A stretch of DNA of 28,395 nucleotides, taken from a virus. Of this stretch, positions 701 to 16,193 are shown one piece after another. Each line of letters starts with the position of its first letter. The first letter of the stretch is position 1. The notes under the pieces are model-generated. The model was given only the letters and a program-made list of their open reading frames with translations. It ran no database searches and was not told the origin of the DNA. The stretch covers positions 1 to 28,395 of IMG/VR virus record IMGVR_UViG_3300050821_016371. One strand, given 5' to 3'. Made by a program: the position numbers and the translations under genes.

Positions 701-1008
701 GCACCGCAAACGATCACGACCTGCTCGACTATTGTCCGAATTGCGGCTCTGTGGGCTATCCTCGGCTCCGCAAGCTCGGCTCGACGTGGGTCGAAGTGCT
801 GCTCTGGCTTTCGTTCCTGCTTCCCGGAATTGTGTACTCGATCTGGCGCGCTTCGTCGAAGCAGTTGGTGTGCCCGAAGTGTGAGTACCCGGGAACAATC
901 CCGCTGGACTCTCCGATCGCGAAGGCCGCCCTGGGCAAGATGCAAAAAACTAGCCCCGTTGCAGGGATCGCTTCTGGACCTCGCTCGACGCCGCAACTGC
1001 TCGCATGA
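697..1008 (+). CDS. Small zinc-ribbon membrane protein, second gene of the moron
   Basis: The 103-residue protein begins at ATG 697, overlapping the upstream stop as ATGA with AGGAGAA just before it; a longer frame from 664 is less likely. Residues 13-16 are CPNC and residues 63-66 are CPKC, so two CxxC knuckles probably bind one zinc ion. Between them lies a transmembrane or hairpin segment (WVEVLLWLSFLLPGIVYSIW). The layout (CxxC, hydrophobic segment ending in YSIWR, CPKC, proline-rich end) matches small bacterial zinc-ribbon membrane proteins known by sequence but without an assigned role. Its last 59 bp overlap the tail-to-tail end of the tape measure gene. A membrane-linked moron such as a superinfection-exclusion factor is possible but unproven. 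Confidence 0.75.
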   Translation: MSTANDHDLLDYCPNCGSVGYPRLRKLGSTWVEVLLWLSFLLPGIVYSIWRASSKQLVCPKCEYPGTIPLDSPIAKAALGKMQKTSPVAGIASGPRSTPQLLA

Positions 1009-3289
1009 TCATTTGCGGCGCGCTCGCTTGTAGGGCGCGCGAAATCTTTTCTTCCACTCCAATTTCCGATCCCTTAGCGTCGATGTGGAAAACGTTGTTC
1101 ACTTGCCCCATGCGCAGCTGCGAGTTTGGAGTCACCGAACTGCCCGTAGGTAGGTTCAGCAACTCTGGGCCTTCTTCGCCCACCAGCGTCATGCCTCCCG
1201 GGGTGTAGTCGCTGCCGGCGGCATCCTCACCGTATCCACCGGTGTCTGCGACGTCATTAACTCCGCCTCCGCCGCCCCCGCCGCCAATGCCAAAAAATCC
1301 GCCACTCCCGCTACCGCCACTTTTCAGCATGAGCTGTGCCGCTGCCATTTGCTGGTTCGCTGCGGTCTGCATGAGGGTAGCTGCGGCCTGCTGGGTCGAT
1401 GCGGCGGCCTGCGCAGTCCCACCCCCGAGTAACTTCCCCAGGCCCAGGCTTTGCCCCATGCTGGTGCCTGACAAATCCTTCAGCCCCTGCATGATCTCTT
1501 TGTTGAGAAAGAACTTGAGCGCCGACTGCTCGAGGCTCAGAAAATATTCACGCCAGTTGGCCTTCCCGGTCGTGATGAGCTTCACGACCTGATCCTCGAA
1601 GCCCTTCATGCCCTGGCTGAGAATGTCGAATGTGAATTTTCCGGTGTTTGTCTCCTGCTGCATCTCTGCGAAGAACGAGCGTAGCCCGTCCTTCGCGTGG
1701 ACGATTTTCTTCTCCGCCTGCTCCAATGCATCGCCCGCGTGTTGCACCGCGGCCGTGTAGGCAGCCTGATCGATCAGGCCTTTCTGCAGCAGCGTGTTCA
1801 GTTCGCCGACGGCTACTTTGTAGTGGTCGGCAGGCGACATTGCTTCCTGGAAAGCTTGCGCCGCGAGTTTCAGTTGCGCGCCCTGGTCGTCATTAAACAC
1901 GGAGAGTTGCGCGCCAGCCGTTCCGCCGCTGCCGAGTTGCGGCGCGATCGGAGTGGCTGAAGGTCCCATGCCCGGCGCGGTCGTGTTCAGCAGTTGAGAG
2001 AGGTTGGGTGGTCCGGCCTGACGAGTGGGCAGTTTAGCTGTGGCTTCAGCTACGTCGGCTTCTCGCTTAGCCTTGGCCAGCACCTGATCGAGCCGCTTGT
2101 CGTATGCGTCGAGCGCCGTCATGGCTGCGCGCATGCCCAGGGCCGATTCCGTTGTTTCACCGAGCGCACGGAAATCGGTGTCGGCTTGTTGCTTCATTAG
2201 CCGGATCTCGTTCGCTAGCTTCTTTATTGGATCCGTTTCCACCTGAAACTTGCCGAGCGAACTGCCCATTTCTTTGTAGAGGGCGTTGAGCTTTTCCTGT
2301 GCGGTCGCTTGCTCTTTGATTGCTCGTTCGCGGGCCTGGGCAGCTTCGAGGCCCTCGCGGTCGCCCTCGATCGCCTTCGCTTCCTTCAGCAGGTTGATCC
2401 ACTCTTGCACTGCGGCCAGTTGCTCAGGCGTGACCACGCTTTGCCCTTGCTGCTTGATCGTTTGGCCATGCGGTCCGAATCCGACGATCTGAGTGCTCTC
2501 CTCGCGCTCTTTTTGCTGTTGCAGTTCGCGAAGCTTCTGCGTGGCCATGTCCAGGTCGGCCTCGAAAATCTTCATGGCCTCGTGCGTGCCGTTCCGAGCG
2601 TCGAGAGCGAATGCCTGGTCGATGGCCACCTTCAGAGTTGCAAATTGCTTTTGCAGTTCCTCAGTGTTGAGTCCCGCGTTCGAGGTGAAAATGTTATGAG
2701 CCGCGTCGCCGATGAAGGCTTTGATCTGGGTCCACGTCCCTGCTGCCTCTTCCGCCTTTTTGTTTTCGTTCTCGATTGCAGCTGCGACCTGGTCGAATGC
2801 GCGCTTCGCCTCGTCGGCCCCCTCCATCGCCGCTTTCATCGCCGGGCTGAGCCCGTTGGCCTCGGCGATCTTCCGCGCATAGGAATCGGCGACCGATTGA
2901 ATTACGTCTTCGGTCTTCGTGATTGAGTCTTTCCACTCGTCCTGGGCGTGCATCGCCTTCTCGATGCTCTTTGAGATTTTCTCAAACGATTCGAACGCGA
3001 CAACGCTGATCGCAGAGAACGCGCCCACGCCGAGCACAGACTGTAGAGCCGTGGCCAGGGCAGGGAACTCCTGCGTCAGCAGTCGCGTCAGCGGCCGCGA
3101 CAAGTGGATCCCGAGCGCTTCATCGATCAGCCGCAAGCTCTCGGCGCCCTCGCGCGAGGCGCGCTTCATCTCGGCCGACATGCCGAGAGTCTGGCTGTTG
3201 ACCAGGCGAAACGCTTCCGGAGCGCCCTTCTCGAGTGCGGAAAGGTCGTAGCCGAGACCGACGAGAATTGTTCCGAGGTTTGCGGACAT
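950..3289 (-). CDS. Tail tape measure protein
   Basis: The 779-residue protein is the largest in the tail module and lies directly after the chaperone and gp10-like genes, the normal place of the tape measure in siphoviruses. It starts MSANLGTILVGLGYDLSALE, has long helical, Glu/Lys/Gln-rich stretches (about residues 130-420), one hydrophobic stretch near 75-105, and a Gly-rich linker near residue 680 (GIGGGGGGGG). The C-terminal region has the signature VGEEGPELLNLPTGSSVTP, the 'GE.GPEL...P.G..V.P' motif typical of lambda H-like tape measures. Tail length scales with this protein; at roughly 1.5 angstrom per residue the tail would be about 110-120 nm, an extrapolation. The 3' end overlaps the oppositely oriented moron gene by 59 bp. 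Confidence 0.93.
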   Translation of the reverse strand: MSANLGTILVGLGYDLSALEKGAPEAFRLVNSQTLGMSAEMKRASREGAESLRLIDEALGIHLSRPLTRLLTQEFPALATALQSVLGVGAFSAISVVAFESFEKISKSIEKAMHAQDEWKDSITKTEDVIQSVADSYARKIAEANGLSPAMKAAMEGADEAKRAFDQVAAAIENENKKAEEAAGTWTQIKAFIGDAAHNIFTSNAGLNTEELQKQFATLKVAIDQAFALDARNGTHEAMKIFEADLDMATQKLRELQQQKEREESTQIVGFGPHGQTIKQQGQSVVTPEQLAAVQEWINLLKEAKAIEGDREGLEAAQARERAIKEQATAQEKLNALYKEMGSSLGKFQVETDPIKKLANEIRLMKQQADTDFRALGETTESALGMRAAMTALDAYDKRLDQVLAKAKREADVAEATAKLPTRQAGPPNLSQLLNTTAPGMGPSATPIAPQLGSGGTAGAQLSVFNDDQGAQLKLAAQAFQEAMSPADHYKVAVGELNTLLQKGLIDQAAYTAAVQHAGDALEQAEKKIVHAKDGLRSFFAEMQQETNTGKFTFDILSQGMKGFEDQVVKLITTGKANWREYFLSLEQSALKFFLNKEIMQGLKDLSGTSMGQSLGLGKLLGGGTAQAAASTQQAAATLMQTAANQQMAAAQLMLKSGGSGSGGFFGIGGGGGGGGVNDVADTGGYGEDAAGSDYTPGGMTLVGEEGPELLNLPTGSSVTPNSQLRMGQVNNVFHIDAKGSEIGVEEKISRALQASAPQMIMRAVAASSEVQKRSLQRG

Positions 3290-5059: not shown

Positions 5060-5623
5060 TTACGACCAGGTCGCGGTGATGTTGCCCACGATCTTGATGG
5101 CGCCCGAGAACGTGATCGCCTTGTTGTATTCCGCGCCCATTTTGAAATCCTGCACATAGCCGGTGAAGACCAGCGTGGTGCCGTCGGTGGTGGTGATCTT
5201 CCAGTAGTTGAGCGCCGCGGATCCGGCCGTCGCGATGTTGGTGAGCAGCCCCTGGGTGATCGGGTCGGTCGGATTGAGCACGCCGTCATATTGCACGGTG
5301 TCGCCGTCGACGACGGTCTTCAGCCACTCTTTGAAGATCGAGGGCGAGTCGAGGTTGGTAATGTCGTCGAACTCAGCCTTGAACCCCGAGAAGCTGAACT
5401 TCTTCAGCTGCGCGATGTTGGTGTAGGCAGCGCCGGTAGTGCCTCCGTTGGCTAGCTTCGAGCCGTAGCCAGGGTAGGCGATGGTTGTGCCGAACAGCGC
5501 GGCGCTGGCCGCGGCGGCCAGCCAGAGCACAAACGTTTTGAGCTTCAGCGCGCCGAGCAGCAGGACCGCGGCGATCAGGATGCCGGCGGGATGGAAAGCA
5601 GCGATCAACAGAAAAGCGAGCAT
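5060..5623 (-). CDS. Major tail (tube) protein paralogue with a hydrophobic N-terminal leader
   Basis: The 187-residue protein has two parts. Residues about 1-48 are strongly hydrophobic (MLAFLLIAAFHPAGILIAA, LLLGAL, TFVLWLAAAASAAL), enough for two membrane-spanning segments. From AYPGYGSKL at about residue 49 it resembles the neighbouring tube-like protein: NIAQLKKFSFSGFKAEFDDI, then GDTVQYDGVLNP, then TLVFTGYVQDFKMGAEYNKAI and a closing IVGNITATW. This strand order fits the tail-tube fold of siphovirus major tail proteins. AAGGAG stands upstream of ATG 5623 and no other normal start lies between it and the tube domain, so the leader should be translated. The leader resembles that of the gene at 15636-16193. 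Such a leader is not expected on a cytoplasmically assembled tube subunit. Confidence 0.72.
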   Translation of the reverse strand: MLAFLLIAAFHPAGILIAAVLLLGALKLKTFVLWLAAAASAALFGTTIAYPGYGSKLANGGTTGAAYTNIAQLKKFSFSGFKAEFDDITNLDSPSIFKEWLKTVVDGDTVQYDGVLNPTDPITQGLLTNIATAGSAALNYWKITTTDGTTLVFTGYVQDFKMGAEYNKAITFSGAIKIVGNITATWS

Positions 5624-5658
5624 GGGATTTTCTCCTTGGGAAAAACTAAAGAACGAAA

Positions 5659-6090
5659 TCAGGCGGCGCCGGCTGGACCGGTCATGGCTCCGACGACGGT
5701 GAGCTTTGCGCTGAACCCGAGAGCTTTCGAAAGCTGCACGGTGAAGGGCACGTATTCCGCGACATAAGCGTTGAACTGATAAACGGTGATGCCATCGGAA
5801 AGCAGAATGCGCCAGGTGCCCAGCGTGAGATTCGCGTGCAGCGTGCCGAGTTCGAGCTGGCTGCCGTTCGCGGGATCGAGCACGCCGGCGATATCGATTT
5901 GGCCGCCATCGATCTGCACCGCCAGCGGCCGCTCGAAATTGTCGGGCGTGAGGAGGTTTGTCTGGTCGGTGGTGGTGTGCTTCGAGCCCGAGGGCAGGAC
6001 TTTCTGCAGCTGCGCGATCGAGAAGTAATCCGTCCCGTCGGTGGTGAGTAGCAGCTTCGAGCCGTAACCGGGATAAGCTTTGGTGATCAG
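5659..6090 (-). CDS. Major tail (tube) protein paralogue, probable CTG start
   Basis: In the frame ending at 5659, the AYPGYGSKL motif at residues 5-13 aligns with residues 49-57 of the next gene, followed by YFSIAQLQKVLPSG. Later come VLDPANGSQLELGTLHANL, then WRILLSDG and FNAYVAEYVPFTVQLSKAL. No ATG, GTG or TTG precedes the conserved start. A CTG at 6090-6088 overlaps the upstream stop as CTGA and has GGAG five bases before it, giving 143 residues. A GTG at 5919 would cut off the conserved N-terminus. I infer that the two adjacent paralogues form or decorate the tail tube; which is the major subunit is not clear from sequence. Confidence 0.72.
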   Translation of the reverse strand: MITKAYPGYGSKLLLTTDGTDYFSIAQLQKVLPSGSKHTTTDQTNLLTPDNFERPLAVQIDGGQIDIAGVLDPANGSQLELGTLHANLTLGTWRILLSDGITVYQFNAYVAEYVPFTVQLSKALGFSAKLTVVGAMTGPAGAA

Positions 6091-6575
6091 AACTGCTCCG
6101 CTGGGCCCATGGCGATGGGCGGGTTCAGCGCCGGGTTGAGACTCTGGCTCTGCACCGTGTAGCTATCCGTGTAGAGCGCCTTCAGGCGCAGCACTGAGCG
6201 GAAGACATAACCACCTCCGCCGAGTTCGTAGGGATCATCGAAGTCGGCGATTACTTCAGCGAACTGCAAAATTGTGCCGTCTGGCAGCGGCCCAGTGAAA
6301 TCGACGAGCAGGTCGCGAATGGTTTGCGAGAGCCTCCGCGCCATGAGCTGACTGTCGGCATAGGAATCGAACTGCAGCTCGCCATCGATGAGCGCACTAG
6401 AGCCGTCCTGCGTCTTCTCAGCCGGTACGGCGTTCACCACATGCAGCACCACGTAAGGCCGGGTCGCCTGCTTCTGCGCCAGGCTGAAGAACACACTGTT
6501 GTTAGCCGGCGCCGCGAGCAGGGAACTGAGCGGCGTTGTCGTCGTGAGCAGCTCATAGAGTCCATTCGAAATCAC
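6087..6575 (-). CDS. Tail terminator / tail completion protein (DUF3168-like)
   Basis: The 162-residue protein starts at GTG 6575, which overlaps the upstream stop as GTGA; a longer frame exists but would run inside the upstream gene. It begins VISNGLYELLTTTTPLSSLL (Val read as Met), then has a strand with PYVVLHVVNAVPAEK, then LIDGELQFDSYAD, then helix QLMARRLSQTIRDLL and a C-terminal FRSVLRLKALYTDS. The order 'P.(I/V)V...(I/V)...P......G......(V/L)Q.D.YA......A..L...IR..L' is that of DUF3168 tail-terminator proteins (SPP1 gp17-like), which cap the tail at the neck. Its position just before the tail-tube genes supports this. Confidence 0.78.
   Translation of the reverse strand: MISNGLYELLTTTTPLSSLLAAPANNSVFFSLAQKQATRPYVVLHVVNAVPAEKTQDGSSALIDGELQFDSYADSQLMARRLSQTIRDLLVDFTGPLPDGTILQFAEVIADFDDPYELGGGGYVFRSVLRLKALYTDSYTVQSQSLNPALNPPIAMGPAEQF
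6096..6099 (-). promoter_or_regulatory. Ribosome binding site supporting the CTG start at 6090
   Basis: GGAG on the minus strand lies five bases upstream of CTG 6090-6088, which itself overlaps the previous gene's TGA. Because the frame offers no ATG, GTG or TTG before the conserved AYPGYG motif, this site decides the start. Confidence 0.5.
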
Positions 6576-8422
6576 GGCGTCACCGTCGCCGACAGCCCCG
6601 AGGGCGCACCAGGAGCCCCGGCGAAAGCATATGGATAGGCGCCCACGTCCCAAGCTCCGCTGGACGGACGCGCAAGGCACCCAGCTCCACAACTACCAGT
6701 GATTCCAAAAAATTGCGGAGCCCCCGTGGTCAGAGGTGAAAAACTTCCAGTGGCTAAACTCGCGAGATTAGCACCGCTCTGGTAGGCCGATGAACTCGCA
6801 TTGGGAATGAGATAGGAACTGGTGAGGCTGGGGTTGGTGGTTGTGCTGTGAGCGTCGAATCCGAAGCCTTGCCAGGTCGCCCATGATGCGGTATTCCCGT
6901 TGGCCTGGCTTCCCCAAAATTTCCCGCTTACGACTGGCGCCCAGATGTTGTGGTCGAAATTGCCGAACACTGCCGCCGTCGCCGCCACCGTGGTGATGTA
7001 GGTGTTGATATCGTACGAAAACGATCCGGTGTTCCCTACGCAGATGTTGTTTCGATAGTCCGAACCGCCGGCATTCGTGAGGTTGAAATTCGCGCAGGAG
7101 TCCTGCGAGTTTCCCGAAACAGTCGTGTTGTTCCAGACCTGCATATACTTCCCGTAAGGGTGGGGGTCGCCGCCGCCCTGTCCCAGCCACATGACCCCGA
7201 ACTCATTGTGGCCGGACGCGCTGTTGGTGGTCACCAGGACGTTATTAAAAATCGCTGCGATCATGGAGTCCGCTGCGTAGATGAAGCCCGTTGGGCAGGT
7301 GTTCGTAAGGTCGCCATGGATGTAATTGTTATAGATCACCGCATTGAAAGGACCTGCCGATCCCCCATAGTTGAACCCTATGACCCCGTCCTGGTGGAAT
7401 GGACTGGAGCAACCGCCACTGCTCTGCCAGTTCGACCAATTCGTGATGTCGTTGTCGTGGATTAAGAGGTTTCCGCAAGTTTCGGAAGATGCACTCCCGC
7501 CGAAGTTTATGCCCCAATCGTGGTCCGCCAGCGTGTTGTAGGCGATCTCGGCGTTCGTGCAGTCGCCACTAGGGTCAAGCGAATAAACGACATTCGCTTT
7601 ACACTGGCCCGAGATAACGTGGTTAACCGAAGTGCTGGTGACGTTGTTGTTGACGACAAGGCATTGCGAACCAGCGCCCGCTGTGTCCCCTGAAACCTGG
7701 ACGTAGATGTTCTGGATCGTGAGGTTCCGAATGACGCTATAGGTTAGGTTGGTGAACGACATGCCCAGCGAGGCCTTTGTGTTCGCCTTTCCAGTGCCGT
7801 TCGCGGTGTTCTGGATCACAAGATTCGTCGCTGCGAATGCAGCTCCCGTCGCAGTCCCCGGAGTTGTTGTCAGTTGCAGCAAGGTGGAACTAATAACCGA
7901 ACTGACCTGGTACAGGGTGCAGCCCGGCCCCGAAGTGACGATGCAGATCGCGACCAGTCCTGTGGGGAAGGTTGAACCGGAAACCCACGACACACAATTT
8001 GACGTGCAGCTGCTCACGGCTGAATTCGTTGTATTGACCGCCCCGCTGTACAGTCCTCCGTCGATCAGGACATAACTCCGCCCGCTGCCCGTGATCGCGC
8101 CGCTCGACGTGGAGAGATAGGGAGCCTGCAAAATGACAGGTCCCTGGTCGAACAAGAATGCGGCCATGTTTCCGGAAGTTCCCGAACCCAGGACGGACAG
8201 CAACGATCCATTCGCGCTGGCGGTGTAGGTTCCAGGACAGACGTGATTGTTCTTTCCCGGTCCGTCATCACTGGAGGCGTGCGAAGTCAACGCTCTCGCG
8301 TTCGAGCAACTGGTAAGCCCCGTGCCACTGCCTTGCGCCGTCGGAGCGAAGTAGGCGTCCGACGCAAAGGCCGAAACGCTCAGCAGCGCAATTCCCAGCA
8401 GAAATTTTAGTTGTGCTTGAAT
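6572..8422 (-). CDS. Secreted right-handed beta-helix protein (polysaccharide-lyase-like), probable ATT start
   Basis: The 616-residue product reads from ATT 8422-8420 with GGAGG six bases upstream; no ATG, GTG or TTG is available near the conserved start. It then begins with a good signal peptide (QAQLKFLLGIALLSVSAFA|SD). The mature start, DAYFAPTAQGSG, is followed by many short turns typical of parallel beta-helices (SYVLIDGGLY, NLVIQNTANG, SVIRNLTIQNIYV, NAVIYNNYIHGD, MQVWNNTTVSGN), ending in GAWDVGAYPY. Such secreted beta-helices bind or cleave polysaccharide, but catalytic residues cannot be assigned. The sequence then enters a proline-rich FN3-like start (APGAPSGLSATVTP) and stops abruptly at the GTGA junction. 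It could be a tailspike-like or exported surface protein. Confidence 0.75.
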   Translation of the reverse strand: MQAQLKFLLGIALLSVSAFASDAYFAPTAQGSGTGLTSCSNARALTSHASSDDGPGKNNHVCPGTYTASANGSLLSVLGSGTSGNMAAFLFDQGPVILQAPYLSTSSGAITGSGRSYVLIDGGLYSGAVNTTNSAVSSCTSNCVSWVSGSTFPTGLVAICIVTSGPGCTLYQVSSVISSTLLQLTTTPGTATGAAFAATNLVIQNTANGTGKANTKASLGMSFTNLTYSVIRNLTIQNIYVQVSGDTAGAGSQCLVVNNNVTSTSVNHVISGQCKANVVYSLDPSGDCTNAEIAYNTLADHDWGINFGGSASSETCGNLLIHDNDITNWSNWQSSGGCSSPFHQDGVIGFNYGGSAGPFNAVIYNNYIHGDLTNTCPTGFIYAADSMIAAIFNNVLVTTNSASGHNEFGVMWLGQGGGDPHPYGKYMQVWNNTTVSGNSQDSCANFNLTNAGGSDYRNNICVGNTGSFSYDINTYITTVAATAAVFGNFDHNIWAPVVSGKFWGSQANGNTASWATWQGFGFDAHSTTTNPSLTSSYLIPNASSSAYQSGANLASLATGSFSPLTTGAPQFFGITGSCGAGCLARPSSGAWDVGAYPYAFAGAPGAPSGLSATVTP

Positions 8423-9225
8423 GCCGCGCCTCCGCAGACCCAGTTCGAACTTCCAGACATCGTGAATGAGTAAGTTGCCGTGCCCGTGCCGCTGCTCAGG
8501 TTGTAGGCCGCGTTGATTTGGTTGCTCCCGTTCGCGCGTTTTCCGTTGGGATCGTTGGTAGTAAGGGAACCGGTCGGAGTCCAAGTCACCGCTGCCCCCT
8601 GCAGTCCCATGCCGACCAGCAACTCGGTTGAGCCCGCTACCGAGCCGGACGCGCCGCTCGTGCAAGTCGTATTGAAGGCGCTGTTCCCGTTGCTCACGAC
8701 GGAAACGTCATAAGGCGAACCAGGAATTCCGGCGCTGTGCTTCCACTCCTGAATCACAACTCCGATCTGGCCCCCGGAAGTCGTTGAGCTCACCGTGACC
8801 GTGTCAGCTCCAGAACTGCCGGCCACAGCCCACCACCCGCACCACCAGCCCATGTTCGTGGAGCTGGTGTCGTGAATGCAGCCGTTGACATCTGTGTTCG
8901 CGTTTCCCGTGCAGGAAGAGTTTCCGTTCGGGCACAGCGCCGTCCAGGTATTCGTCTTGCTGTCGGCAACGGTGAGGGTCGTTCCGCCATTGGTCTCGTT
9001 AGCAAACGCCAGAAGCAGGTGGCCGCTTCCTATGCTGGAAGGATAAGCAACAGCTTCACTCGTGCCCGCACCGCCGTTAGAACCATTGGCGCTGTTTTGG
9101 GCTAGAGAGAATCCCGTGATGGCGGCGCTGGGACTCAAAACCCCGCCGCCAACGATCGGAGGAGACTGCGCGAGACCTATGCTCGATAACAACAGGAAGA
9201 GAAAAAATGGCTTATTGCTGAACAT
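8407..9225 (-). CDS. Secreted beta-sandwich protein of unknown function
   Basis: The 272-residue product starts at ATG 9225; a GTG at 9237 is an alternative. It opens with a signal peptide (MFSNKPFFLFLLLSSIGLA|QS). The mature part has a repeated beta-rich pattern: SSIGSGHLLLAFANE, then LTVADSKTNTWTAL, then MGWWCGWWAVAGSSGADTV, then VVIQEWKHS and TELLVGMGLQG. The 'SGHLLLAF.......VADS..NTWTAL....I..W...AG' arrangement occurs in extracellular Ig-like modules of environmental bacteria and in phage proteins. Four to eight cysteines, uncommon in cytoplasmic phage proteins, could form disulfides after export. It overlaps the genes on both sides, so it is translated within the virion operon. Function unknown. 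Confidence 0.72.
   Translation of the reverse strand: MFSNKPFFLFLLLSSIGLAQSPPIVGGGVLSPSAAITGFSLAQNSANGSNGGAGTSEAVAYPSSIGSGHLLLAFANETNGGTTLTVADSKTNTWTALCPNGNSSCTGNANTDVNGCIHDTSSTNMGWWCGWWAVAGSSGADTVTVSSTTSGGQIGVVIQEWKHSAGIPGSPYDVSVVSNGNSAFNTTCTSGASGSVAGSTELLVGMGLQGAAVTWTPTGSLTTNDPNGKRANGSNQINAAYNLSSGTGTATYSFTMSGSSNWVCGGAAFKHN
8429..8433 (-). promoter_or_regulatory. Ribosome binding site supporting the ATT start at 8422
   Basis: GGAGG on the minus strand lies six bases before ATT 8422. It is also made by the Gly-Gly codons of the upstream gene, so it could be coincidental. The resulting protein starts exactly at a canonical signal peptide. Confidence 0.4.
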
Positions 9226-10861
9226 AGCGGATCTCACCCGAGGTCTGGCCCGTGCTCGAGAGCAGCAGGCAGATGTTGTCGGCCGCGGTGGCCGTTTTGT
9301 AGACCCAGTTGCCGCCCGTTCCCTTCACCAGGCCGCCGTTCGCTGCGAAATTCCAGCCGGTGGCTGCCGTGGATCCGCCGGCCATGCCGGCGATGCTCGT
9401 AGCGCACGTCGTGCCCGTGCCTTCGACCAGTGCGATGTTTTGCGCGGTCGCGGTGACAACGTCGATTGCGCAAATGTAGGTCTGCTTCGACGACGTGCCG
9501 GCGATGACCTGGCCGCTGGCGGTGAGGTTGATCACTGTCTGCGAGCCGGCGTTCCCTCCGCATGGATCGAGCACCGGAGCGGTGCCCCCGACTTGCGCGA
9601 CATTGACCGATTGATTCGCGGCCAGCGCTACGTTCAGCGCGGTTGTAAGGTTTGGCTGGTTGGGGTTGATCTGCACGACAAGCGACTTGTCGGCTGCTGC
9701 CGCCTGCGTCGATGCAGCTTTCACCGCTGCTGGCCCATTCGTTCCGTCGGCGATCGCGGTGTAGAGGGGATTGGTCGCACCCGTGGCAGCGCCAGCGACC
9801 TGGTTAATGTTCGTGCTTTGGTTGGCCGCGAGTGAGCTGTCATTTGAGATGGTCACGCGCGGAATTCCAGCTCCGCTCGCGCCCGTGCCGGTGCTAACAG
9901 CCGTGCCACCCACATAGTTCAGGTCGACCAGTTGCTGGCCTTTCACGTCGAGCTGCTCTGCCGAGCTGTTGCCGCTGGTGATGGTGGGCAACGTGGAATT
10001 GTAAGTGCCTCCCACGTTCAGGTTGTTCGCCGGCGCGGCCGCATTTTGCGCCGCATCGAAGATTCCGCCGGCGTTGCCGATGGTGCGCACGTTCCACGTG
10101 CCCGATTGCGACACTGCGGGCGTGTTCGTCACGAAAGCATTCATGCCGGCGACGGCGACCGCGCCTGGCGAGGTGCCATAGTTCGAAGGTGCCCCGAGCG
10201 AAGTGCCGGCCAGTTTGTAGAGGTTGATGAAGAGGCTGCGATCGTTGGTGAGCTGCGCGATGCCGGCCTGCCCGCTGGTGAGGGGGGTGATGCTCGAGCT
10301 ATAAAGGCCGCCGATCGGGTTGAAGCTGGTGGTGCCTTGCGTGAACGCGCCTTCATCCGCCAGCGAGGATCCGCCGGAACTGCTGCAACCGGTTTTGCAA
10401 TTGATCTCCACATAGCCGCTGCCATCGACCGGGCTTGTCACCGAAACATTGCCCCCTCCGGAACTGGAGCCGCCGCTGGCGCTGAGCAGTGTGGTGTTGA
10501 CGGTGATAGTGACGCTTGTGCCTCCGGTCCAGCTGGGCACGATGGTGAACGAGTCGTAGGCTTTTGAAATCGATGGAGCCCGGATGACGTTCGACGTGCT
10601 GGTGTAGGTATCTAGCGAGTCGCAAGAGCCGCCCTGCTTGCAGCCCGAGACCACGATCGAGACCGTTGCAGGCGAGCCCGTGATCACGTATTCGAACGAT
10701 GCCGTCATGGCTCCGGCCCCGTTCAGCTCGGTGAGTGTGAGGCCGCTCGAGGTGACAGTCTTGCTGTCGACGCTGCGTACCTGCGCCTGCGCGCCTGGCA
10801 CCAGGCACAGCGCGAAGAACAGCAGCATGCCGATCGGCAGAAGATAGCGATTTGGTTTCAT
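9212..10861 (-). CDS. Secreted virion-like fiber/decoration protein
   Basis: The 549-residue protein starts at ATG 10861 behind AAAGGAAAC; a longer frame reaches 10930 but overlaps the upstream gene. A signal peptide (MKPNRYLLPIGMLLFFALCL, cleavage AQA|QV) is followed by a beta-sandwich region (YVITGSPATVSIVVSGC), a Ser/Gly linker near residue 130, and a module with FTQGTTSFNPIGGLY and AQLTNDRSLFINLY. That motif and the last about 110 residues (VINLTASGQVIAGTS, then ALVEGTGTTC, then GTGGNWVYKTATA) resemble domains of phage surface proteins. It lies between the head-closure gene and other secreted genes. The combination of virion-type modules with a signal peptide is the odd feature. Confidence 0.74.
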   Translation of the reverse strand: MKPNRYLLPIGMLLFFALCLVPGAQAQVRSVDSKTVTSSGLTLTELNGAGAMTASFEYVITGSPATVSIVVSGCKQGGSCDSLDTYTSTSNVIRAPSISKAYDSFTIVPSWTGGTSVTITVNTTLLSASGGSSSGGGNVSVTSPVDGSGYVEINCKTGCSSSGGSSLADEGAFTQGTTSFNPIGGLYSSSITPLTSGQAGIAQLTNDRSLFINLYKLAGTSLGAPSNYGTSPGAVAVAGMNAFVTNTPAVSQSGTWNVRTIGNAGGIFDAAQNAAAPANNLNVGGTYNSTLPTITSGNSSAEQLDVKGQQLVDLNYVGGTAVSTGTGASGAGIPRVTISNDSSLAANQSTNINQVAGAATGATNPLYTAIADGTNGPAAVKAASTQAAAADKSLVVQINPNQPNLTTALNVALAANQSVNVAQVGGTAPVLDPCGGNAGSQTVINLTASGQVIAGTSSKQTYICAIDVVTATAQNIALVEGTGTTCATSIAGMAGGSTAATGWNFAANGGLVKGTGGNWVYKTATAADNICLLLSSTGQTSGEIRYVQQ

Positions 10862-10890
10862 GGAAGTTGTTTCCTTTCGAGAGGAAGCGA

Positions 10891-11283
10891 TCAACTGGCG
10901 CCGCCCGCGTTCTGGTTGATCTCGAAGCAATAAATCTTCAGCTGCCAGTGCAGCTCGTCGATGTCTTCGATCGCGGCGATTTGAAAGACGCGCGTTTGCC
11001 CAGCCTCATTGAGCTGGATAGTCATGTTCTCTTCGACGCCGAGCTGATAAGTGATGACCGCCAGGTGCGAGACGCGCTGCGCGATCTGCTGCGCTTTGTC
11101 GAGTTCGTCGCCGGCTAGCGCATAGAGCGCTGCCCACGAAGTGAACTGCGCGCTGGGCTGCCCGCTTGAGCCATCGGTGTTGCGCGAACCCGGCGAGCAG
11201 AACGTGATCATCCGGTTCATGGCTCCCGGAGTCACATAGCGGCCCTGGCGTGGCAGACCAGCACTCAGTCGAGGCAGCGGCAT
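10891..11283 (-). CDS. Head-tail adaptor / head closure protein (Phage_H_T_join-like)
   Basis: The 130-residue protein shows the family pattern: an N-terminal GAMNRMITFCSPGSRN (compare 'L.rRIti.....'), a WAALYALAGDELDKAQQ segment (compare 'W..i.p..g.E...a.q'), then VSHLAVITYQLGVEENMTI and a terminal IAAIEDIDELHWQLKIYC strand ('I.gv.d.d....l.l.c'). HK97 gp7/SPP1 gp16-type proteins close the capsid vertex and dock the tail. ATG 11283 follows the previous TAG directly; an internal ATG at the NRMITF position would give a shorter protein. It is two genes downstream of the connector, as in other phages except for one inserted secreted gene. Confidence 0.83.
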   Translation of the reverse strand: MPLPRLSAGLPRQGRYVTPGAMNRMITFCSPGSRNTDGSSGQPSAQFTSWAALYALAGDELDKAQQIAQRVSHLAVITYQLGVEENMTIQLNEAGQTRVFQIAAIEDIDELHWQLKIYCFEINQNAGGAS

Positions 11284-11730
11284 CTAGTTCGTCTGAAGAA
11301 CGGCGTATTTCACGGCCGCGTTGCTGCAGGCCAGGTAGACGTTCTGCGTGCCTGACTGCACCCAGCCGGTGAGGAACTTCATCTGGATCCCGGTGATGAC
11401 GCCCGCAGCCACGGAGTAGGTGGTGAGCGATGTGTCGGTTCGACCGAGATTGTCGGCCACGCTGGTGACCGTGAAGGTGTAGGTGCTGCCTCCGGTGTTG
11501 TCGACCAGCAAAACCTCGCGGCCGGTGGCGGCGAACGAGTTTCCGTTCGAGGCGTCGCACGCGGTGAAGGTGATCGTGAGTTGGCCGGCCGTGACGGCCG
11601 CGTTGTTCTGCACCAGCACGACAGTGGTGAGCGGCGTCTGCGCGGCGAACGCGCTGAGGCTCGCAAAGGTGACCATCAGCGCAATGGCGATGATTCGGGT
11701 GAAGAGCGAAGGCTTATTTTTTTGCGACAT
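11284..11730 (-). CDS. Secreted small virion-like beta protein
   Basis: The 148-residue product begins with a long signal peptide (QKNKPSLFTRIIAIALMVTF then ASLSAFA|AQ) behind AAGGAG at 11 bases from ATG 11730. The mature 115 residues read LTITFTACDASNGNSFAATG, REVLLVDNTGGSTYTFTVTSV, then a C-terminal YLACSNAAVKYAVLQ. The sequence 'D..NGN.F...GR..L.V.NTGGS..T.TV.S..D..GR......Y.V..G' matches a small beta-sandwich family commonly coded near phage capsid genes and often called head or minor virion protein. Those relatives, as I recall, have no signal peptide. It sits between connector and head-closure genes. Confidence 0.72.
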   Translation of the reverse strand: MSQKNKPSLFTRIIAIALMVTFASLSAFAAQTPLTTVVLVQNNAAVTAGQLTITFTACDASNGNSFAATGREVLLVDNTGGSTYTFTVTSVADNLGRTDTSLTTYSVAAGVITGIQMKFLTGWVQSGTQNVYLACSNAAVKYAVLQTN

Positions 11731-11743
11731 GGGTGAGTTCTCC

Positions 11744-12646
11744 TTAGCCGCGGGTAGCGGCCTTGATGTGAATTTTCCAGCGATAGAGCAGGCGCTGCAG
11801 GCGCGGGTTCTCCGAAATCGATCCGGAGACCGACAGCTCGCGGTTGTAGTAGCCCTCGGAAATCAGAGTGCGCATAGCCGAGCGCAGCGTGGCCGGCACT
11901 GCGGTGCCATCGTTGCCGTAGCCGGCGATGTAGTGAATGGAAACCGCGTTTGGAACGTAGAGCACGGGCGGCCAGCTCTGCCCCGGCATCGGGAAGATGC
12001 GGCCCGGGCAGGTGATGTTGTCGTAGAGGAAATCGCCCGCGGGCGCCAGGCCCTGATTCGTCCAGGTCAGCCCAGCGTCAGTGGTGGCGCCGTCCTCGGT
12101 AATACTCCATGCCGGCGTGGAGGCCCCGGAGCTGACCGTGCCATCTTCGTTGGCCTGAGTCTCATCCACTGCAGTTACTTCCTGCAGGTTGCCGTTTGAG
12201 TCCTGGATCTCGTCGCCGATCGCGAATTTTATATTCGGAGCCCAGGGCGCCGGCGCCGGCAGCAGCGAGAGAGTCTGAGTGGTGACGGAGTCGACATAGT
12301 CGATGCGCGTGACCTCGCGCAGCGGCGAGCGCAACAGCTTGAGCATCTGCGAGTAGTTCCACAGAGTGGTCGAATACCGCGGCAGCGAATAGTAGCTGGG
12401 CGGGTAGGCCATCTGGCTCATCACGGAGTCGACGAAATAGGGGAAGCTGTCGAGCACCTGGTTGTAGCCCTTGTTCACCAGCGAGCGCCCGGTATAGCCC
12501 TCCACCTCTTCGCGAGCGGCCTGAATCAGTTCCGCGATGAACGTGTCGTCGGCCGTGACGCCGACCGGCACCTTCAGATGGTTCTTGACGTCGGCCAGCA
12601 GCAACGGCTCGGCCAGCGGCGCGATCTCTTCGGTTATATAAGCCAT
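11744..12646 (-). CDS. Head-tail connector protein (gp6-like) with an internal insertion
   Basis: The 300-residue protein starts LAEPLLLADVKNHLKV and continues DDTFIAELIQAAREEVEGYTGRSL, the classic N-terminal signature of gp6-like/YqbG connectors that form the ring beneath the portal. The family end is also present: VPNAVSIHYIAGYGN, VPATLRSAMRTLISEGYYNR. Between them, about residues 148-208 hold an extra beta-rich insertion with AIGDEIQDSNGNLQEV and PAWSITEDGATTDAGLTWTN, a 'PAW...G.TT.DG..TW.N.G' module that turns up in phage surface proteins. Ordinary members are nearer 100-200 residues. The insertion might project outward from the neck. Confidence 0.85.
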   Translation of the reverse strand: MAYITEEIAPLAEPLLLADVKNHLKVPVGVTADDTFIAELIQAAREEVEGYTGRSLVNKGYNQVLDSFPYFVDSVMSQMAYPPSYYSLPRYSTTLWNYSQMLKLLRSPLREVTRIDYVDSVTTQTLSLLPAPAPWAPNIKFAIGDEIQDSNGNLQEVTAVDETQANEDGTVSSGASTPAWSITEDGATTDAGLTWTNQGLAPAGDFLYDNITCPGRIFPMPGQSWPPVLYVPNAVSIHYIAGYGNDGTAVPATLRSAMRTLISEGYYNRELSVSGSISENPRLQRLLYRWKIHIKAATRG

Positions 12647-12656
12647 CAGTTAGAGC

Positions 12657-14732
12657 TCACGGGATCGTGGTGACGACTTCGTTCGAATAGCCGCTCTGCT
12701 GCGCGCCGACGAACGCAGCCACGACGTAGTAGTAAGTTTGGCCGGCGATCGCCGTGGGATCCTGAGCGGTCTGCGTGTTGGGGGCGAGCGTTTGAATCGC
12801 CGTGTAAGGACCGCCGCTGGTCTGCGACTGATAAACAATTTGCGAAGTCACGCCGACAGTTTCGGAGTGACGCCAGATCAGCCTGGCACCGCTTTGCGTC
12901 GCTGTCACCCGCAGCGCGTAGGGTGCCGCGACTCCAGCTTGCGTTGTGGTCTGGACGACATTCGAGTAGGCGCTTTCGATCGTGCCGACCAGCGCGGTCA
13001 CCGCGTAGAAATAAGTTTGTCCTGGAGCAACGGTGACGTCGGTGAAAGTTTGCGCCTGCGGCGAGAGCTCCGCGATCACGCTGAACCCGGAGCCGCCGTC
13101 GCGGTAGAGATTCTGCGACGTCACCAGCACGCTGGGCGAATAGCGCCAGACCAGGACGGAGGCGCCCGCTGTTTGCGTGACTCTTAGCCAGATTGGCGCT
13201 GCGGCGAACGGAGTGGTCGCCAGGGTCAGACTGTCGGGCGTGTTCAGCGCCTCGCCCAGACTTACAAACGAGTTCTGCTGGCTGTGTGGCACCGCGGCCA
13301 GCGCGGCGCTGGTGCTCAGACTTTCGCTGAGTGGCTGGAACCAGGCTGTGTGCTCCGTCAGCGAATCGCTGAGGCTCAGCGTTTCGCCGAGCGCCTGTGC
13401 GTGCCCGTACTGTCGCGCGAGGGAATCGCTGGTGGTGAGATCTTCGGTGAGGTCGATCTGGGTGATGGAAGCCAGGCTCAGAGCCGCGCTGGTGCTCAGA
13501 GACTCGCTGAGTGTCTGGGACCAGGCCACCTGCCGCGCCAGCGAGTCGCTGGTCGTCAAGGTTTCGCTGAGCGCATAAACATGGCCATCCACTCGTGAGA
13601 GGTAATCGCTGGTGGTCAGGCTCTCGCTCGGTGACTGAACCCACCCGACCTGCCGCGCCAGCGAGTCGCCGGTGGTCAACGTTTCGCTGAGTGACTGGAT
13701 CCAGGCAACCTTGCGCGCCAGCGAGTCGCTCGTGCTCAGGCTCTCGGTGAGTCCGACGTTTCCCTGGAAGTTGGTGGAGAGCGCATCGCTGGTGGTCAGA
13801 CTTTCGCCGAGCGCTTGCGTCCAGCCGACCTGGCGCGTCAGCGAGTCGCTGGTCGTCAACGTTTCGCTGAGCGACTCGGGCCAGCCCGCCTTGCGTGCAA
13901 TCGAGTCGCTCGTGCTCAGACCCTCGATGAGGTTTGGGCCAAGCAATGCCGTCACGCTCATCGAGTCGCTGGTAGTGAGTGATTCGCTGAGCGACTCGGG
14001 CCAGCCTGCCTGGCGCGCAATCGAGTCGCTCGTGTTCAGGCTTTCGGTGAGCCCGATATTCCCCTGGAAGTTGGTGGAGAGCGCATCGGCTGTGATGAGG
14101 CTTTCGCTGAGCGATTCCGGCCAGCCCGCCTGTCGCGCAATCGAGTCGCTCGTGCTCAGAGTTTCGCTGAGAACCTGCGCGTGAGAATACTGCCGCGCCA
14201 GGGAATCGTTGCTGCTCAGGCTCTCGCTCAACCCGGTCCCGTGCTGGGCATTGCTCGAGAGCGCGGCGCTTGTGCTCAACGTCTCGCTCGGCTGCCGAGA
14301 GCCGGCAAACTGCCGCACCAAATTGTCGCTGGTGGTGAGCGACTCGGAGAGAGACCCCAGATACGTCAGAGGAATGTAGGCCGTGCCCTGGTTGGAGTTG
14401 CTGCTCTCTACTCCGTTGAGCTGCCAGACGGCCGTGGTCACGTAGTAGTACGTTTGCCCGCTGATCGCCGTGGCATCGGTGTAGGAAAGCCCGCTGACGC
14501 AGTCGGCGATCCGCGTGTACGGACCACCGCTCGCGACGCCGCGATAAACCCGATACCATACGGGGCTGGAGCTGGAGGCTGTCCAGTTCAGCACCACCTC
14601 GTAAGGGTTCGTGGGTTCCGGCGCAACGGCGATGGAGTCGGTTGTGCACAGGTATTCCGACGGCGCTGCGGATCCGCTTTGCGCGGCAGCCGAAGCGCCC
14701 AGCAGGGCAAAGATGAAGGCGACTCGCCACAC
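12657..14732 (-). CDS. Secreted FN3-repeat fiber: FN3, nineteen 20-residue repeats, two FN3 domains
   Basis: The 691-residue product starts at GTG 14732, three bases after the upstream TAG. A signal peptide (WRVAFIFALLGASAAA|QS) leads to an FN3-like domain at about 40-121 (VLNWTASSSSPVWYRVYRG, then TYYYVTTAVW). Residues 127-510 are nineteen copies of a unit like LSESLTTSDSLARQVGWVQS, almost all exactly 20 residues. Two FN3-like domains follow, about 511-600 and 601-691, each with VW.YS/IWRHSE, QTYFYAV/QTYYYVV and AYSN/GYSN. The rod-with-caps layout suggests an elongated fiber or adhesin. It lies between capsid and connector genes. Similar LS.SDSL repeats occur in environmental phage and archaeal proteins as I recall. 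Confidence 0.8.
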   Translation of the reverse strand: MWRVAFIFALLGASAAAQSGSAAPSEYLCTTDSIAVAPEPTNPYEVVLNWTASSSSPVWYRVYRGVASGGPYTRIADCVSGLSYTDATAISGQTYYYVTTAVWQLNGVESSNSNQGTAYIPLTYLGSLSESLTTSDNLVRQFAGSRQPSETLSTSAALSSNAQHGTGLSESLSSNDSLARQYSHAQVLSETLSTSDSIARQAGWPESLSESLITADALSTNFQGNIGLTESLNTSDSIARQAGWPESLSESLTTSDSMSVTALLGPNLIEGLSTSDSIARKAGWPESLSETLTTSDSLTRQVGWTQALGESLTTSDALSTNFQGNVGLTESLSTSDSLARKVAWIQSLSETLTTGDSLARQVGWVQSPSESLTTSDYLSRVDGHVYALSETLTTSDSLARQVAWSQTLSESLSTSAALSLASITQIDLTEDLTTSDSLARQYGHAQALGETLSLSDSLTEHTAWFQPLSESLSTSAALAAVPHSQQNSFVSLGEALNTPDSLTLATTPFAAAPIWLRVTQTAGASVLVWRYSPSVLVTSQNLYRDGGSGFSVIAELSPQAQTFTDVTVAPGQTYFYAVTALVGTIESAYSNVVQTTTQAGVAAPYALRVTATQSGARLIWRHSETVGVTSQIVYQSQTSGGPYTAIQTLAPNTQTAQDPTAIAGQTYYYVVAAFVGAQQSGYSNEVVTTIP
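13203..14354 (-). repeat. Tandem 60-bp coding repeat, 19 imperfect copies
   Basis: The repeats encode residues 127-510 of the secreted fiber. The 60-bp periodicity is visible in the DNA (for example CGCGCCAGCGAGTCGCTGGT recurs every 60 bp), and it is always in frame; one unit, number 18, is 24 residues long. Some pairs are nearly identical, such as units ending in NFQGNIG and NFQGNVG, which suggests duplication of multi-unit blocks. Confidence 0.85.
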
Positions 14733-14735
14733 GCA

Positions 14736-15278
14736 CTAGATGGAGACGGTCCAGGTGATCGTGAGGGTGTCGGTGTTCGCCAGGTTGACCTGGGTGAAGG
14801 CGGCCTCAAACACCATGGTGCCCGAGCTGGAGGCATTGAACATGCCGGCCTTCTGCACCGATTGCGAAGCGGTCGCTGTCCAAGTGTGGGCGAGCGTCCA
14901 CGTGGAAGTGCCACTCGAGTGGGCATAGGTGCCTTGAGCCCGCGCGCAGCCGTTGGTGGTGATTTCGCTCGGCAGTGTGCAGCTCGAGGACCCTGCAGCG
15001 CAATCGCCGGCCGCGGGCGCCGTCGCGTCGTTGGTGAGAGCGATGTAGTTCACCGTAGCCGGCGGCGCGGAGGTGTTGCCCATTGCGCTTGCCTGCCAGT
15101 CGGCTCCGCCGGTGGTGCGCAGGTTGTGAATCTCGTTGTCGTAGAAGATCGTTCCATCCGCATGGCGCGCCACAATGTGGACGTTGACCTCGCGCGTGGG
15201 ATGGACCTCGACTTGAGAAAAAGCGCTGGCGGCGACTAATAGCGCGACCAGCAGGCTGAGGAATTTGCGTGTTTTCAT
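14736..15278 (-). CDS. Secreted virion-like beta protein (fiber-associated family)
   Basis: The 180-residue product starts at ATG 15278 with AAAGGA six bases upstream. The signal peptide is MKTRKFLSLLVALLVAASAF then S|QV. The mature part runs EIHNLRTTGGADWQASAMGN, then NYIALTNDATAPAAGDC, then TNGCARAQGTYAHSSGTSTW, LAHTWTATASQSVQKAGMFN, and TDTLTITWTVSI. This order ('HN..T..G..W.A..MG', 'YIAL.ND...PAAGD', 'G..RA.GTYAH', 'QKAG.FN...GTMVFE') is a phage virion family I have seen in metagenomic siphoviruses, there without a signal peptide. It could form fiber or surface knobs. It may be functionally paired with the next gene, the repeat fiber. Confidence 0.74.
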   Translation of the reverse strand: MKTRKFLSLLVALLVAASAFSQVEVHPTREVNVHIVARHADGTIFYDNEIHNLRTTGGADWQASAMGNTSAPPATVNYIALTNDATAPAAGDCAAGSSSCTLPSEITTNGCARAQGTYAHSSGTSTWTLAHTWTATASQSVQKAGMFNASSSGTMVFEAAFTQVNLANTDTLTITWTVSI

Positions 15279-15331
15279 AACTATCCTTTCGTGGTTTTCG
15301 AGGAACTCGGTGATTTTGAAAAGTCGGGGAT

Positions 15332-15541
15332 CTATGCGCGGCGTTTGCCGAACAGGGCCTTCTTTGCCGCCTGCTGCGCGGGCGCGACTGCGCGCTCGGA
15401 GATGGCCGCGACGGCCATCGATTCAACATCCTGCGGCTTCGCTTCTTCTGCGGTGCCGCCGGCGATCATGCGTTTGGCGACGTCGGGCACCATGTCGAGA
15501 ACCTGGTGGGTGGCTTTGATGCGAACACGAATCATCTGCAT
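15332..15541 (-). CDS. Small head-region protein of unknown function
   Basis: The 69-residue protein starts at ATG 15541 behind AAAAGG. It begins MQMIRVRIKATHQVLDMVPD, then VAKRMIAGGTAEEAKP, and ends in a Lys/Ala-rich tail (KKALFGKRRA). Phages often have a small gene after the capsid gene with 'V.AL......V.GEVV.V....A..LI..G.AE.' in its product; the AKRMIAGGTAEEA segment matches that style. Members have no established function. The translated region upstream of the ATG in this frame (to 15568) is not needed. Confidence 0.65.
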   Translation of the reverse strand: MQMIRVRIKATHQVLDMVPDVAKRMIAGGTAEEAKPQDVESMAVAAISERAVAPAQQAAKKALFGKRRA

Positions 15542-15561
15542 AGGGAAATCCTTTTGTCGCG

Positions 15562-15619
15562 AAAACAAAGCCTGCTGGCCGGGCCAATAAAGGAGCCGGT
15601 TCCACTTACCGCAGCAGGC
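15562..15619 (-). terminator. Possible terminator or processing hairpin between two late genes
   Basis: On the minus strand GCCTGCTG (15619-15612) can pair with CAGCAGGC (15577-15570), and the right arm is followed by TTTGTTTTC. The loop is long (about 34 bases) and contains its own short GC pairs, so it is a weak candidate. Confidence 0.3.
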
Positions 15620-15635
15620 CTTTAAGTCAGCTGGT

Positions 15636-16193
15636 TTAGCTGATGGTGACGCCGCTCGACTGCACCGGGATCCACTTGCCGTTCCGGGCGACGAAGGTGA
15701 CGAAGCTACCTTGAGTGCCGTTGAACGTGGCCAGGTGATGCGACGGTGTGATCACGTTGGCACTCGCAGTCACGGTATGTGCGTGGCCACTGTTGTCGAT
15801 GATCGTGATCTCGAGCCCGTCGTTGCCGCCGGCCGAAGGCGCGCCCGCGACTGGAGTTGCCAGCGTGGTTGCGTTGACGCCTGCAGTCTCGATGAAGCTG
15901 GTGCCGCAGATCGGCACGATAGTGGTCGTCGAGAGGCCGGGAGGCAGATTGAGCGAGCCGCCGCCGCCCGTGATGACGTCGGTGGTGCCGGTGAGAACTT
16001 CGAACTGGAAGGGCAGATTGCTGCTCTGCCCCACGACAGTGTCGTAGTCCGGCGAAAGCGGACCGACCATGGGGCCGGGGCTTTGCGCGGTGATGAACGT
16101 GCCGAAGAGGCCCGCAGCGGTCAGCGTGGCGACAACAGTCTTCCAGCCGAGCGCGTGCAGGAACAAGAGAGCGAAAAGCGCAGCGTGTGTCAT
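15636..16193 (-). CDS. Decoration-like protein with hydrophobic N-terminal leader
   Basis: The 185-residue protein starts at ATG 16193 behind AGGAG. Its first 35 residues are hydrophobic (MTHAALFALLFLHALGWKTV then VATLTAAGLFGTFIT). The rest is beta-rich: SGHAHTVTASANVIT and SFVTFVARNGKWIPVQSSGVT match a widespread phage decoration/fiber-tip pattern ('G...V........F..F.A.NGKW.....NGVT'). It directly follows the capsid gene, separated by a strong hairpin. The leader resembles that of the tail-tube paralogue at 5060-5623, with AL, KT, V and AA.LFGT.I in the same order. A capsid decoration role is plausible, but the leader argues for membrane targeting at some stage. Confidence 0.7.
   Translation of the reverse strand: MTHAALFALLFLHALGWKTVVATLTAAGLFGTFITAQSPGPMVGPLSPDYDTVVGQSSNLPFQFEVLTGTTDVITGGGGSLNLPPGLSTTTIVPICGTSFIETAGVNATTLATPVAGAPSAGGNDGLEITIIDNSGHAHTVTASANVITPSHHLATFNGTQGSFVTFVARNGKWIPVQSSGVTIS

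Follow-up and report, generated by a model that had tools for sequence, protein, structure and literature searches.

Export-type leaders on virion-type accessory proteins within the head-tail module of an HK97-type siphophage

Gene order and leaders of the head-tail module

The IMG/VR virus record IMGVR_UViG_3300050821_016371, analysed here over its 28,395 bases (the window), encodes on the minus strand the structural module of an HK97-type siphophage, in which virion-type proteins with export signals or long hydrophobic leaders are interleaved with leaderless core parts. PHROG and Pfam profiles recover the large terminase subunit (TerL), portal, protease, HK97-type capsid, head-tail adaptor (Ad1), head closure (Hc1), tail terminator, tail tube and tape measure, with weak matches for the terminator (6.5e-5) and the tape measure (8.9e-5). 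The order runs from the small and large terminase subunits through portal, protease, capsid, sp1, a small gene, sp2, sp3, Ad1, sp4 and Hc1 to sp5, sp6, sp7, the terminator, two tail-tube paralogues (tube1 and tube2), genes in the chaperone position, tail completion and the tape measure. An overlapping contig, which may come from the same sample and virus, matches the window at 100% identity over 17,009 bases; in another view, 2 of 20,900 bases differ. All eight open reading frames (ORFs) that a sequence-only reading had singled out for a Sec signal or hydrophobic leader (sp1-sp7 and tube2) are present on this strand; the leaderless tail-tube gene tube1 (5659-6090) had been overlooked there. 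The features are as follows.

15636..16193, minus strand: sp1, fibre-anchor/decoration-type protein after the capsid gene; 31-residue leader (16101-16193, ending ...GLFG), fused where leaderless relatives have Met
14736..15278, minus strand: sp2, virion-type protein matching phrog_5417 (no known function); signal peptide 15216-15278
12657..14732, minus strand: sp3, repeat protein; signal peptide 14682-14732; GTG start without a clear Shine-Dalgarno sequence
11744..12646, minus strand: head-tail adaptor Ad1; no leader; core control
11284..11730, minus strand: sp4, small phage protein rich in beta structure, encoded between Ad1 and Hc1; signal peptide 11644-11730
10891..11283, minus strand: head closure Hc1; no leader; core control
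9212..10861, minus strand: sp5, fibre-like protein (by eye); conserved signal region 10784-10861, ending ...LCLVPGAQA/Q (cut before Q)
8407..9225, minus strand: sp6, 272 residues with six Cys; signal peptide 9169-9225; weak Shine-Dalgarno sequence; overlaps sp5 and sp7
6572..8422, minus strand: sp7, 616 residues, beta-helix-like (by eye only); signal peptide 8363-8422; ATT start behind GGAGG
6087..6575, minus strand: tail terminator, leaderless; probably starts at a GTG that overlaps the stop of sp7
5659..6090, minus strand: tube1, first tail-tube paralogue, leaderless; likely CTG start, overlapping the terminator stop
5060..5623, minus strand: tube2, second tail-tube paralogue; 45-residue hydrophobic leader 5489-5623, ending ...ALFG/TT
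950..3289, minus strand: tape measure protein, leaderless; marks where the module ends

Signal peptides were called with a home-made rule requiring a basic n-region, a nine-residue hydrophobic core and an AXA-like site. Six of the eight products, sp2-sp7, show this organization, typical of Sec substrates of signal peptidase I. The leaders of sp1 and tube2 fail the rule; they are strongly hydrophobic over 31-45 residues (best nine-residue hydropathy 2.9 and 3.6), and each has its own ATG behind a Shine-Dalgarno AGGAG. The eight leaders are real and fall into two classes. In line with the predicted interleaving with leaderless core parts, none of the window's 12 other (core) genes passes; the terminator was entered in this count from a start that precedes its likely GTG. 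False passes amount to 3/465 proteins of nine core families and 48/1540 shuffled sequences; the former control was run without the terminator, the tube and one small family, which pass at 5/45, 0/38 and 3/57, respectively, and four of the listed terminator passes are, by eye, fibre proteins mislabelled by the terminator profile. In 320 kb of an Acidobacteriaceae metagenome-assembled genome (MAG) the rule passes 60/245 proteins. Lipoprotein and Tat-substrate identities find no support, since among 77 signal-bearing proteins a lipobox-like sequence, as recognized by signal peptidase II, occurs in three, none of them in the window, and a twin-arginine motif in none.

Shine-Dalgarno-led ATG starts precede the leaders of sp1, sp2, sp4, sp5 and tube2, and the anticipated overlaps of stops and starts are seen for sp5/sp6, sp6/sp7 and sp7/terminator. 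The sp7 ORF is likewise present, but its proposed start holds no ATG, GTG or TTG: the ORF list begins it at a TTG at 8665, inside sp6, and it is an ATT at 8422 that lies behind GGAGG. Both this ATT and the CTG of tube1 (6090) are the same in the overlapping contig. In seven comparisons between close relatives, the ratio of nonsynonymous to synonymous changes (pN/pS) is 0.24-0.64 for the leaders and 0.11-0.23 for the bodies; the leaders are therefore constrained as protein, and by this measure evolve under purifying selection.

Leaders across the clade and on sp4

Relatives, designated below by L and G numbers, were found by scans with the capsid and adaptor proteins, and ten longer contigs of the clade were gene-called; accessory genes are those of at least 100 residues between capsid and tape measure. 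For the tally, 24 clade and 24 outgroup contigs were chosen by hand, the clade partly by its leadered sp4, with redundancy retained, L048 and L058 left out of the clade count, and near-identical and second views of contigs dropped from the tables. The rule passes 79/102 accessory genes in the clade versus 4/62 in the outgroup, where three of the four are leaderless sp4 homologues and, by eye, false positives. Because of the way the clade was chosen, the counts were repeated without sp1 and sp4, which gave 48/59 versus 1/54, and with groups defined only by capsid identity (50% or more across 500 residues), which gave 71/98 in 29 loci versus 15/122 in 56 loci, or 40/50 versus 8/101 without sp1 and sp4. 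Core genes of the same interval in the clade pass at 5/101, four of the five being fibre proteins mislabelled as terminator, and plus-strand genes elsewhere pass at 12/166 in ten clade contigs and 13/96 in six outgroup contigs. This low rate outside the interval indicates that the trait is confined to the stretch between capsid and tape measure, where signal-bearing, mostly Cys-rich proteins lie at several points among the conserved core genes. Export signals on accessory proteins are, by these comparisons, a trait of the clade, and the leaders are demonstrably open, coupled to starts, selected and concentrated on accessory proteins so far as genes can tell. As a general trait of Acidobacteriota phages it is unsupported: in the cultured acidobacterial siphophage Tunturi 4, none of 20 genes spanning terminase to tail region passes the rule, and a 21st that does is, by eye, a small membrane protein. 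As a separate observation, L048, L136, L077 and G015 carry glycosyltransferase-like genes (by eye) in the same interval, where the window has signal-bearing proteins.

The small protein sp4 provides a direct comparison of leadered and leaderless homologues. The best 80 of 168 relatives, together with the earlier loci, gave 65 distinct proteins, or 64 without L202, which lies at a contig edge; a copy was counted as leadered, separately from the signal rule, if at least 12 residues precede the conserved start. By this definition 41 are leadered and 23 start directly at the mature sequence, three of the leaderless proteins being false passes of the signal rule. In several relatives a leaderless copy occupies the same site, flanked by adaptor and head closure, and in L211 two tandem sp4 genes, 57.5% identical, stand side by side, one leadered and one leaderless. 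On a tree of mature sp4, ten changes of the leader label are required, three or more of them forced, and the leader has therefore been gained or lost repeatedly. Neighbouring genes go with it, since accessory genes near leadered sp4 pass the rule at 69/118 versus 4/61 near leaderless sp4. Neither a uniform failure to score nor a uniformly retained leader is thus observed: six of the eight leaders of the window score as signals, relatives differ, and leaderless homologues exist. The modelled mature sp4 resembles uncharacterised viral proteins (11 BFVD matches at E <= 1e-3, the ten best of 89-119 residues); its top structural rows, a sensory rhodopsin transducer and collagenase domains, were taken as common beta arrangements, and XepA of PBSX is among the insignificant matches (E about 0.1).

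A second signature accompanies the leader. A Cys pair is found in 32/41 leadered and 0/23 leaderless sp4 proteins (Fisher 4e-10, a value inflated by relatedness). With sp4 excluded and six incomplete proteins left aside, 30/36 complete signal-bearing proteins with at least two Cys have an even count, versus 88/158 genes without a signal from ten clade contigs (p 0.002) and 83/138 outgroup genes; taking one protein per cluster with at least one Cys, the signal-bearing figure is 20/25. The 66 signal-bearing proteins average 1.73 Cys per 100 residues, compared with 0.58 for core proteins (n = 125) and 1.12 for accessory proteins of the outgroup (n = 42). The sp4 pair and the even counts together thus point to an oxidising compartment.

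The remaining accessory proteins are less tractable. For sp2 there are weak matches in phage records and two leaderless profile matches, one in L138 and one in G019. Residues 553-616 of sp3 match phrog_10304 (virion structural protein; E 8.8e-9). Among 50,697 phage records, sp3 and sp5 each match a single one, and sp6 and sp7 none. Pfam gave nothing above cut-off for two genes of the window or for six accessory proteins encoded by relatives. The signal region of sp5 has a mean pairwise identity of 0.54 (14 proteins, one 45-residue fragment omitted) versus 0.39 over the next 100 residues and contains a conserved LCLVP motif; being better conserved than the body, it would constitute a constant export front on exchangeable bodies. 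For sp4 the signal region is the less conserved, with an identity of 0.32 versus 0.58 in the part that follows.

The leaders of sp1 and the second tail tube

In sp1, leaderless relatives begin MTQITAQ... and leadered ones read ...LFGTFITAQ..., such that the leader replaces the initiator Met; 19/67 distinct sp1-like proteins pass a strict leader test. The pattern in tube2 is alike (leaderless MTTTAYPG... versus leadered ...ALFGTTIAYPG...). Together with sp4, these comparisons show, as judged from the aligned homologues, that leaders were joined to phage proteins whose relatives elsewhere have none. The modelled mature sp1 is a T4 gp9-like/tailspike connector-type domain by fold similarity: Foldseek matches it to TSP4 of CBA120 (7rej) at E 1.2e-4, and Z scores are 11.3 for an Acinetobacter phage tailspike (24qj), 10.4 for TSP4 (7rej), 9.3 for a Klebsiella phage baseplate, 8.1 for T4 gp9 (1qex), 8.0 for the T4 baseplate and 7.3 for the Pa223 capsid spike, along with 8.7 for a non-phage chaperone-substrate complex (6o38). 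T4 gp9, the T4 baseplate protein, CBA120 TSP4 and the Pa223 capsid spike, which share this fold, are not known to carry a leader.

The two leaders also share a junction, (F/L)G-T, seen in 16/20 leadered sp1 proteins of the window's type (L263, L269, L275 and L297 lack the GT) and in 10/10 tube2 proteins, the latter from a search biased by patterns that include the junction. Six more hydrophobic-start sp1 relatives (L279, L281, L282, L300, L303 and L314) are without it. By eye, there is no ATG or Shine-Dalgarno sequence at the sp1 and tube2 junctions of the window; internal reinitiation was considered, and L006 and L007 keep an internal ATG. The tail tube is paired (tube1 and tube2) in the window and in L003, G010, G001, G003, G004, L022, G009, G006 and G007, and single in G008, G005 and G002 (the copy of G002 used was without 20 of its 40,020 bases). 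Counted over the window-clade contigs whose tube region matched one or both queries, the pair is present in nine of eleven. A perfect co-occurrence of the sp1 and tube2 leaders was rejected, as G003, G004, G008 and G009 have a leadered sp1 but no leadered tube. The idea that tube1 serves in the cytoplasm and tube2 is a spare made only for export is weakened by G002 and G005, where the leadered tube is the only one found.

As a further observation, many sp1 and tube2 leaders (L245-L282, L325-L334) carry, by eye, a His some 10-15 residues in, between two hydrophobic stretches and often followed by Pro, Gly, Ala or Ser. It is present in both of these unrelated genes, and the His-bearing leader is perhaps a shared module.

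Host, destination and rival explanations

A portal search of bacterial and archaeal genomes returned six distant relatives at 40-47% identity. Half of them lie in Acidobacteriota MAGs; of the other three, a single methanogen MAG holds two and an assembly from an uncultured archaeon the third. A capsid search of genome contigs gave no match. Taking the archaeal relatives as mis-binning, the host is probably an acidobacterium, to go by these portal sequences. The early remark that Gln stands at or beside the +1 position of the signals is borne out, by eye, for sp2, sp3, sp5 and sp6 (+1) and sp4 (+2). Gln at +1 is about as common in the Acidobacteriaceae MAG (29/60 signals) as in the phages (39/68), and a habit of the host signal peptidase therefore looks likely.

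We consider it reasonably probable that the locus is an HK97-type siphophage module whose peripheral virion-type proteins bear membrane-targeting leaders and are exported by Sec, the core parts remaining cytoplasmic. Core parts that have to meet DNA or polymerise on the tape measure are signal-less, and the signal-bearing proteins are peripheral. Comparison strongly supports the membrane-targeting half of the original export proposal; the destination (surface, periplasm or virion) is not readable from sequence, and we infer it, as we do the place of the exported proteins in the particle, the latter on the strength of homology, fold and position in the gene order. The six canonical products are probably exported by Sec late in infection, lose their signals to signal peptidase I and form disulphide bonds as they fold beyond the reducing cytoplasm, within which portal, capsid, connectors, terminator and tape measure would assemble. 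Less certainly, the exported pool might wait in the periplasm and meet finished particles, or envelope and debris, at lysis, supplying particles in trans with a second set of surface proteins or coating host material. The hydrophobic leaders of sp1 and tube2 would place these proteins in the membrane, possibly with release at the (F/L)G/T junction, where a cut would restore the N-terminus of their leaderless relatives. We lean to the particle as the target because of the connector fold of sp1, the place of sp4 in the gene order, and the want of obvious fibre genes elsewhere, none being evident downstream of the tape measure by eye in three contigs, with no family search made. A bolder form of this reading, possible but doubtful, is a two-compartment virion, in which decoration, fibre and even tail-tube subunits are exported or membrane-inserted, processed (the fibres by signal peptidase I, sp1 and tube2 by a cut at (F/L)G/T), oxidised and, outside the cytoplasm, added to a core built within it, amounting to an extracytoplasmic second phase of assembly in Caudoviricetes.

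Several observations weigh against Sec export of peripheral virion proteins in such a module. The case is built from genes alone and a home-made rule, not SignalP or DeepTMHMM, and the host assignment leans on portal identities of only 40-47%, three of the six relatives being in archaeal records. The match to phrog_16194 ('tail protein') is weak (12/25 members, best E 1.4e-5), and the sp4 fold has no PDB match below 1e-3 (best Z 7.6). Within the clade, 11/22 sp1 copies and 11/37 unassigned accessory genes do not pass, and outside the interval the outgroup rate exceeds that of the clade. Seven leadered sp4 proteins are without the Cys pair, four of them carrying Met/Thr like the leaderless ones, and two more end short of the second Cys position. 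There is no Cys signature in sp1 and tube2, and the contigs in which the leadered tube is the only one found, G002 and G005, are hard to square with tube export. Export leaves the leadered tail tube unexplained: either the leader is cut at (F/L)G-T, or tails are made by another route.

The same leaders would be expected if the proteins were secreted cargo, that is, late-made adhesins, depolymerases or exclusion factors that act on the envelope, neighbours or matrix and never enter the particle. Several of them are indeed large, variable and Cys-rich, sp3 and sp5-sp7 are all but absent from the phage records, and such proteins are signal-bearing even where sp4 is leaderless (L209, L197). We nevertheless hold this to be unlikely, if a serious contender, for sp1, sp2 and sp4 have leaderless phage homologues, those of sp4 at the same Ad1-Hc1 site, sp1 has a virion connector/tailspike-type domain, and the by-eye survey of three contigs past the tape measure offered no alternative fibre genes. 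Improbable, in our estimation, is a membrane-tethered assembly, in which the leaders, and in particular those of sp1 and tube2, serve as anchors that are cleaved late or not at all and keep abundant self-polymerising proteins at the inner membrane until needed, with assembly taking place there. The similar hydrophobic build and common junction of these two leaders, and the two contigs with a leadered tube only, would suit it; the six sp1 relatives lacking the junction, the ordinary signal peptides of sp2-sp7, the leaderless tape measure and terminator, and the Cys pairing and even counts that point to an oxidising compartment would not.

Finally, we give very little weight to an annotation artefact, by which wrong start codons turn non-coding DNA into hydrophobic N-termini. 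The unusual starts of sp7, tube1 and sp3 invite it, as does the fact that conservation of sp1 and tube2 across all relatives begins only past the leader. However, leaders begin with Shine-Dalgarno-led ATGs in many loci, are in frame and variable in length, and are under purifying selection; the overlapping contig is identical over 17,009 bases, and core families hardly ever pass. We hold the artefact to be refuted for leaders found in several loci, the sp7 start resting on the window and the overlapping contig alone. The repeated counts strengthen the observation and are silent on destination.

Known systems differ in instructive ways. Modules of the HK97 type, such as those of roseophage R4C and lambda-like phages, have the same families in the usual order; here, accessory proteins with Sec signals or hydrophobic leaders are interleaved among them. 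The filamentous phage coat proteins pIII and pVIII are virion proteins with signal peptides that are inserted in the inner membrane. However, such phages are single-stranded DNA filaments extruded through the membrane, whereas terminase, portal and tail genes mark ours as a tailed phage, the structural genes searched belonging to tailed-phage families rather than to an Inovirus coat and extrusion set. Phages also export non-virion proteins by signals, as with the signal-anchor-release (SAR) endolysins and superinfection-exclusion lipoproteins. Those and XepA are lone genes for lysis or exclusion, in contrast to the whole virion-type set of the present module, in which lipobox-like sequences are rare.

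Textbook accounts place the whole of tailed-phage assembly in the cytoplasm, a rule that is broken by leaders repeatedly added to ordinary virion-type proteins with paired cysteines. A literature search, in which subscription journals are thinly covered, found no account of tailed-phage virion proteins that carry signal peptides as a set, and within that coverage a whole signal-bearing set of this kind appears undescribed. Leadered and leaderless homologues, side by side in L211, constitute a natural experiment, making it testable whether particles are finished or coated outside the cytoplasm or the host envelope is armed with phage surface proteins. Should export lead onto particles, this would possibly be a new assembly principle for the siphophage module.

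Convergent with the tape measure, two plus-strand genes of the window encode a 157-residue protein (227-700) with a signal-like N-terminus and no Pfam match, and a 103-residue protein (697-1008) with sub-threshold zinc-ribbon matches and a hydrophobic stretch; these are possibly exclusion or conversion genes. At the position matching this pair, G002 has minus-strand genes of similar build and G010 a signal-bearing one (by eye). At the other end of the window, a minus-strand gene (27412-28242) encodes a C-terminal run of ADLADRADLAYLA-type, pentapeptide-like repeats.

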